Assembly (NCBI GenBank): GCA_027031765.1
Contig: JALVPN010000041.1
Location: 1 to 47,128 of the forward strand
Length of the DNA stretch: 47,128 nt
Source: Promethearchaeota archaeon
GTDB taxonomy: Archaea; Asgardarchaeota; Thorarchaeia; Thorarchaeales; Thorarchaeaceae
Direction: 5' to 3'
The notes beneath the pieces were generated by a model that worked only from the letters and a program-made list of their open reading frames with translations, did not search any database and was not told where the DNA came from. This document shows, one piece after another, positions 2,471 through 4,099 of the stretch (within the stretch, counting starts at the first letter, position 1; each line of letters starts with the position of its first letter). The position numbers and the translations under genes were made by a program.

Positions 2471-3652
2471 TCAGTCTGCCGGTATCGTCGTGGAGACCAC
2501 GTCGAGGTCGTTGAACAGGGCATTGAGAGTGCCCCGTGTGACGTGTGGCATTATTACCAGCCTGATTGACGACGGCAGTGGAGATGTCGCCATCCGCCAC
2601 CCGCGCCCCTCCATCGCTTCCACAATCCTGTCAACAGGCACCTCGCGGCTGGTGATTGCCACTATGTTCATGACCGGCGGGATTACGGCTTCGAGCATCG
2701 GGTTCAGGTGCACCCGTTCTACGGCATGCTGTGTCGTCTCCATGCACTGTGCAACGACCTTGCGGTACCCTTCCCTTCCGAGGTGACGCATGATTGCCCA
2801 TGCTGCAATTATGGACGCCGCCGGACGTGTGCCGAGCATAGATGCCTGGCGTGACGATGCACCGGGTAGATATGGGACTCGTGTCGTTATCGCCTTCAGG
2901 TACTTCGACGACCTGAACAGTATGCACCCCGAGGGGATCGGTGCCAGCCCCATCTTGTGCGGGTCGGTGCTCACACTGGTCACCCCCTTCACTGAGAAGT
3001 CGAACGGGTAGTCCCCGAGACCCAGGTCTCTCAGGAATGGTATCACGAAGCCACCGAACGCAGCGTCTACGTGGAGCGGCAGCCCGTACTCGGAGGCAAT
3101 CTCTCCAATCTGTTCAATGGGGTCCACCTGGCCCAAATAGGTCGTACCGGCGGTCACAAAGATACCGACCGTGTCTGGGGTTATTGCCCGCTCGATTGCC
3201 CGTGGTACCGCACGGTATGACCTGTCCACGCGTGTCGCGACCAGCCGCACACCTAACAACCATGCAGCCTTCTTGACCGAGGAGTGTGCAGTCCTCGGAG
3301 CAATCACCTCTGGCCTGTCTGTCCTCTTCTTGGCGAGCTCTCTCGCAGCCAGCATTGCAAGGATGTTGGACTCTGTGCCCCCGGAGGTCGTTGTCCCATG
3401 TGGCCTGCGGAGGCCGAGCAGGTCTCCTATCATCTCTAGGAGCTCCTGTTCGATTTTCGCCGAGCCCTGGAAAGTGTGCAGTCTACCTGCGTTCTTCTCC
3501 AGTGTCCTCACGAAGACCTCCGCACCGAGTGCATGTGGTATCGTCGACATCGATGCTGTCGGATGGCCAGAACGGTAGGTCGCATCCGCCCTGAGGGTTC
3601 TGTCCAGGGCTGCAAGGACCTCCTCTGCGCTCACTCCGTGTTCGTCAAACAT
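2471..3652 (-). CDS. mfnA: PLP-dependent L-tyrosine/L-aspartate decarboxylase (MfnA-like)
   Basis: HSSVKKAAWLLGV, VDAAFGGFVIPFL, STDPHKMGLAPIPSGCILFR (PLP Lys context). Confidence 0.85.
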   Translation of the reverse strand: MFDEHGVSAEEVLAALDRTLRADATYRSGHPTASMSTIPHALGAEVFVRTLEKNAGRLHTFQGSAKIEQELLEMIGDLLGLRRPHGTTTSGGTESNILAMLAARELAKKRTDRPEVIAPRTAHSSVKKAAWLLGVRLVATRVDRSYRAVPRAIERAITPDTVGIFVTAGTTYLGQVDPIEQIGEIASEYGLPLHVDAAFGGFVIPFLRDLGLGDYPFDFSVKGVTSVSTDPHKMGLAPIPSGCILFRSSKYLKAITTRVPYLPGASSRQASMLGTRPAASIIAAWAIMRHLGREGYRKVVAQCMETTQHAVERVHLNPMLEAVIPPVMNIVAITSREVPVDRIVEAMEGRGWRMATSPLPSSIRLVIMPHVTRGTLNALFNDLDVVSTTIPAD

Positions 3653-3824: not shown

Positions 3825-3930
3825 TGGGGCCCGGAGCGGGAATTGAACCCGCGGCTAGGGATCCACAGTCCCCAAGGTTGCCATCTGGCTCCACGGCACT
3901 GCATGCCAGCGGAACTACCCCATCCGGGCC
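3825..3930 (-). tRNA. tRNA-His(GTG) with apparent D-loop intron; G-1 and CCA encoded
   Basis: Reverse complement: acceptor GCCCGGA/TCCGGGC with extra 5' G opposite C73, D-stem GGGT/ACCT, anticodon arm GGGGA-CTGTGGA-TCCCT, T-arm GCGGG-TTCAATT-CCCGC, 3' CCA; about 27-29 nt extra in the D-loop (around 3883-3911) containing CTGGC/GCCAG. Confidence 0.9.
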
Positions 3931-4099
3931 ATGGCTGAATACCTGCGCCCTCTTGGGCACGGTGCAGGGTGTCCTGTCCTCTTATTAGCTTTGTCCATGT
4001 GCCACAGTCCTTCCACTCCGCACCAGTACTGGTACCATATGTGTGGCTATGCTCCCACTGTCCTGGACTCTGTGCCGTCCAACGCGTACACGGCACGGC

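Follow-up and report, generated by a model that had tools for sequence, protein, structure and literature searches.

The locus considered here raises the question of whether a tRNA-His gene whose D-loop is split by an insertion is still a working gene and, if so, how the insertion is removed from its transcript. It lies in a window of 47,128 nucleotides (the whole stretch of DNA that was analysed), which is contig C41 in an assembly of 2.95 Mb that comprises 229 contigs and is 95% complete; its source is most probably a member of the Thorarchaeota, within the Asgard archaea. We consider it a tRNA-His(GUG) gene with a 31-nt intron of the BHB type between positions 15 and 16, cut by an (alpha beta)2-type EndA and with its exons joined by RtcB, and we assign this reading a probability of about 0.93.

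The interrupted gene and its predicted mature form

Read along the minus strand, the gene is complete from 3930 to 3825, and the tRNA-His parts listed by a sequence-only reading of this DNA, including G-1:C73, the GTG anticodon and CCA, were all located there. G-1 at 3930 is followed by the acceptor 5' strand GCCCGGA (3929-3923), by T8 and G9, by GGGT (positions 10-13, 3920-3917) and by A14 and G15 (3916-3915). Directly after the insertion (3914-3884) the gene resumes with T16, G18, G19, C20 and A21 and continues, through an anticodon arm GGGGA-CTGTGGA-TCCCT and a T-arm GCGGG-TTCAATT-CCCGC, to C73 at 3828 and the CCA at 3827-3825. The TAATAAG core of a TATA-like element lies 57 nt before G-1, and across the family it is in most cases found about 34-57 nt before tRNA-His. 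Elsewhere in the window, positions 2471-3652 encode a tyrosine-decarboxylase-like protein. The features of the locus are as follows.

3981..3992, minus strand: TATA-like element AAAGCTAATAAG, upstream of tRNA-His; the TAATAAG core is upstream in most relatives examined
3915..3930, minus strand: tRNA-His 5' exon, G-1 to G15 (GGCCCGGATGGGGTAG), read from the sequence; same layout in relatives
3884..3914, minus strand: tRNA-His intron of 31 nt, TTCCGCTGGCATGCAGTGCCGTGGAGCCAGA, in the D-loop at 15/16, placed by a joint tRNA and BHB scan; homologous site in G011, G021 and G009
3825..3883, minus strand: tRNA-His 3' exon, T16 to CCA, anticodon GTG, read from the sequence; the designed mature tRNA matches at 98%
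3917..3919, minus strand: 5' strand of the predicted central BHB helix H (GGT of the exon D-stem), pairing with GCC at 3889-3887; three of four standard pairs
3914..3916, minus strand: predicted bulge 1 (AG|T), placed by BHB geometry, with the 5' cut between 3915 and 3914
3883..3885, minus strand: predicted bulge 2 (GA|T), placed by BHB geometry, with the 3' cut between 3884 and 3883
3890..3913, minus strand: intron hairpin h' (TCCGC 3913-3909 with GTGGA 3894-3890), present also in the free minimum-energy structure

As expected of a gene with an insertion, ARAGORN recovers only a misfolded 69-nt form of the gene, without a proper D-arm, and the Rfam score of 21.7 bits falls below the cut-off of 29. 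Excision of 3914-3884 yields a standard cloverleaf, to which ARAGORN gives 122.4 instead of 100.3. The D-arm of this spliced form, GTAGTGGCAACC (GGGGTAGTGGCAACCTT), is identical to that of the intronless orthologue in G010, and the spliced forms of G011, G021, G015 and G024 give the same D-arm. We located the borders with a scan of possible deletions in which the ARAGORN score was combined with a BHB score devised in this analysis; the 31-nt cut (3914..3884) ranked first at 132.0, with a rival 29-nt cut, 1 nt inward at either side, close behind at 131.1. The proposal of an intron in the D-loop is thus supported, since orthologues with and without introns share one mature D-arm, and its original size of about 27-29 extra nucleotides is to be corrected to 31 nt, between positions 15 and 16. 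Where the Rfam cut-off rejects and ARAGORN misfolds a gene of this kind, Asgard genomes can seem to be without tRNA-His.

Predicted BHB motif and intron fold

The BHB motif predicted in the window is relaxed and weaker than that of the four relatives named above with D-loop introns. Its central helix has three of four pairs and its inner helix five, and the outer helix is absent. The motif scores 16. At this cut 0.9% of intron shuffles do as well, and 4.1% do so when slips to neighbouring cuts are allowed; by itself the motif is no better than the top-scoring BHB that shuffled sequences contain at any position (median 22). That the insertion is more than chance follows from its splitting two conserved exon blocks at a site that is occupied in three related genomes. 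In G011, G021, G015 and G024 the motif is perfect or near-perfect, with all four central pairs, and the best BHB in the whole gene sits exactly at the cut that leaves GTAGTGGCAACC; the scores range from 23 to 28.5, which exon-fixed intron shuffles reach in 0 to 0.04% of cases. The motif of G009 is comparable to that of the window, with a score of 13 and shuffle frequencies of 1.2% (same cut) and 10% (with slips). Between the window, G009 and G011/G021 the sequence of the inner helix varies with its pairing kept, although only these four sequences share the 15/16 site.

A CTGGC/GCCAG stem had been proposed earlier at the insertion borders. Both segments exist within the intron on the minus strand, CTGGC at 3909-3905 and GCCAG at 3889-3885, but their pairing is about 3 kcal/mol less stable (-48.6 kcal/mol when forced, against -51.6 for the BHB-compatible fold and -52.7 for the free minimum), and it cannot set cuts that leave a normal D-loop: when the stem is tried as the inner helix of a BHB, the adjoining cuts delete the invariant D-loop GG. 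In the BHB fold the GCC of GCCAG would form the 3' strand of the central helix, and its final G would open bulge 2. The CTGGC/GCCAG stem is therefore probably not the one used in splicing.

Relatives, splicing machinery and competing explanations

We searched 59 Asgard genomes for orthologues, using as query the designed mature tRNA-His with one extra D-loop base. Within the family of the window, tRNA-His is free of introns in G010, G018, G008, G004, G030, G014, G026, G020 and G012, carries an intron of 28-30 nt in G011, G021 and G009, placed as in the window at 15/16, and has introns of 32 and 26 nt at 20/21 in G015 and G024, respectively. An intron in the T-arm is found in G028 (L053), of the same family, and in G045 (L049), of another Asgard family, both with four pairs in the central BHB helix. 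Seven of the 12 matches to a phylum-wide intron pattern (G051, G058, G210 and G212-G215) proved to be intronless tRNA-His genes whose D-arm is slightly extended; they are left out of the counts. Intron presence thus varies among the tRNA-His orthologues of one family while the exons are kept, and the resulting series (no intron, two D-loop sites and a T-arm site in the same tRNA) is a good natural one for asking how introns come and go, and how specific the enzyme is, in the archaeal group nearest to eukaryotes.

Two EndA-family genes are encoded in the genome: a catalytic alpha subunit, whose gene meets a contig end so that its N-terminus lies beyond the assembled sequence, and a second subunit without the catalytic His. 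Alpha has the Y, H and K residues together with K-P-K at the position of the Crenarchaea-specific loop (CSL), whose lysine is characteristically followed by Pro or Val and then by Lys or Arg, and the EndA of Aeropyrum pernix is its closest counterpart. In A. pernix EndA the CSL residues K44-P45-R46 have been linked to broad specificity (PMC6379350). Two EndA-family genes occur in nearly all Asgard genomes searched; Y/H/K is present in all 31 Asgard alpha sequences read, as is K-P-K or K-P-R aligned to A. pernix K44-P45-R46 (L077, L079-L108), and the second subunit keeps Y and K and is missing His in 16 of 16 sequences, which makes it probably structural. Asgard archaea are not mentioned in a 2025 structural paper on the Crenarchaea-specific loop. 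The heteromeric or otherwise relaxed EndA expected by the sequence-only reading accords with this typing of the two genes, from which an (alpha beta)2-type heterotetramer of broad specificity is predicted. RtcB, of the archaeal tRNA ligase family, is also encoded.

Given these components, the D-stem GGT of the precursor would pair with the intron's GCC to form a short central helix, with the intron folded into a hairpin of its own. An (alpha beta)2-type EndA, composed of the catalytic alpha with its CSL lysine loop and the second subunit, would cut both flanking bulges, AG|T and GA|T, at phosphates that are here predictions. RtcB would then ligate the exons at the predicted junction GGGGTAG + TGGCAACC, and the D-stem bases, released from the intron, would form the normal D-arm. 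A two-part enzyme of this kind very probably removes the intron.

Among other explanations, the likeliest, which we nevertheless consider very improbable, is that the insertion has disrupted the gene and left a pseudogene, with a working tRNA-His gene elsewhere. Standard tRNA finders do miss or misfold the locus, and an assembly in 229 contigs and 95% complete could be missing a second copy. A second tRNA-His was not found across this 95% complete assembly by BLAST, by a search with the tRNA family, or by patterns that either allow for an intron or do not. Moreover, every exon part is intact, the TATA-like element upstream is conserved in relatives, and in related genomes an intron interrupts the detected tRNA-His at this D-loop site or one close by.

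The stable hairpin into which the insert folds could also be understood as an expanded D-loop, retained in a functional tRNA. This is less probable still: the sequence, length and position of the insert vary among relatives (15/16, 20/21, T-arm or none) around a constant mature form, and the genome encodes a splicing enzyme of predicted broad specificity. Least probable of all is an artefact of assembly or binning, a chimeric or foreign contig, for which the fragmented metagenome assembly gives some cause; the tRNA exons are best matched by genomes of the Thorarchaeota family, and independent assemblies (G009, G011 and G021) have an intron at the homologous site.

Non-canonical introns in this genome and in other archaea

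A tRNA family search of the genome gave 39 matches, with about 22 introns in about 21 genes; outside tRNA-His, the exact intron positions were judged visually on the scan output. Five introns lie in the D-arm (His, initiator Met, Ala-GGC, Pro-CGG and Pro-TGG), seven in the T-arm (Gly-CCC, the second intron of Asn-GTT, Lys-TTT, Thr-CGT, Tyr-GTA, Leu-TAA and Ser-GCT), about seven at or adjoining 37/38, and three in the variable region. Most of the four D-arm introns outside tRNA-His and the seven T-arm introns have clear BHBs. The 39 matches include no tRNA for Phe, Trp, Val-GAC, Pro-GGG or Arg-TCT/CCT; these may have been lost to assembly gaps or may carry introns that put them beyond recognition.

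The intron of the window is a further case of the non-canonical tRNA introns already published for other Asgard and other archaea. In the Asgard Atabeyarchaeia and Freyarchaeia, 92-95% of tRNA genes have been reported to contain introns, many of them non-canonical, with two or more introns frequently in a single gene (PMC11291895). The present genome resembles theirs in its Asgard origin and in introns outside 37/38, and differs in belonging to another Asgard lineage, most probably Thorarchaeota, and in having introns in about half of its tRNA matches rather than 92-95%. A search covering part of the literature found no paper on Thorarchaeota tRNA introns. Thermoproteales, which have multiple non-canonical tRNA introns and an (alpha beta)2 EndA (Sugahara et al. 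2008; reviewed in PMC4090602 and PMC4033280), share with this genome short BHB introns in the D-, anticodon and T-arms, and their listed sites include 20/21 and 59/60. They belong to a different phylum, and 15/16 is not in the review's list, but as that list closes with 'etc.', the omission is no sign of novelty. The (alpha beta)2 EndA of A. pernix (3P1Z, 3AJV; PMC6379350) is the best solved match of our predicted alpha (E 1.4e-33), and in this comparison, made at the level of sequence, its Y, H, K and K44-P45-R46 align to the alpha Y, H, K and K-P-K. The second subunit is more remote from solved structures, its best match being 5X89, a Methanopyrus kandleri EndA chain.

A wider scenario, to which we give somewhat worse than even odds, is that gain and loss of tRNA introns continue at several sites of the D- and T-arms in a single Asgard family, that Asgard EndA generally has the 'Crenarchaea-specific' loop, and that broad-specificity splicing predates the Asgard/TACK split. 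If this were true, broad-specificity tRNA splicing belonged to the lineage that gave rise to eukaryotes.

Two further details of the genome's tRNA set may be recorded. The initiator tRNA-Met (L074, G000:C217:56400-56700) has a 31-nt D-loop intron between G18 and G19. The tRNAs for Asn, Lys-TTT, Thr-CGT, Tyr, Leu-TAA and Ser-GCT (L069, L070, L071, L073, L075 and L076) have T-loop introns of about 30 nt, mostly with strong BHBs, and that for Asn has two introns.
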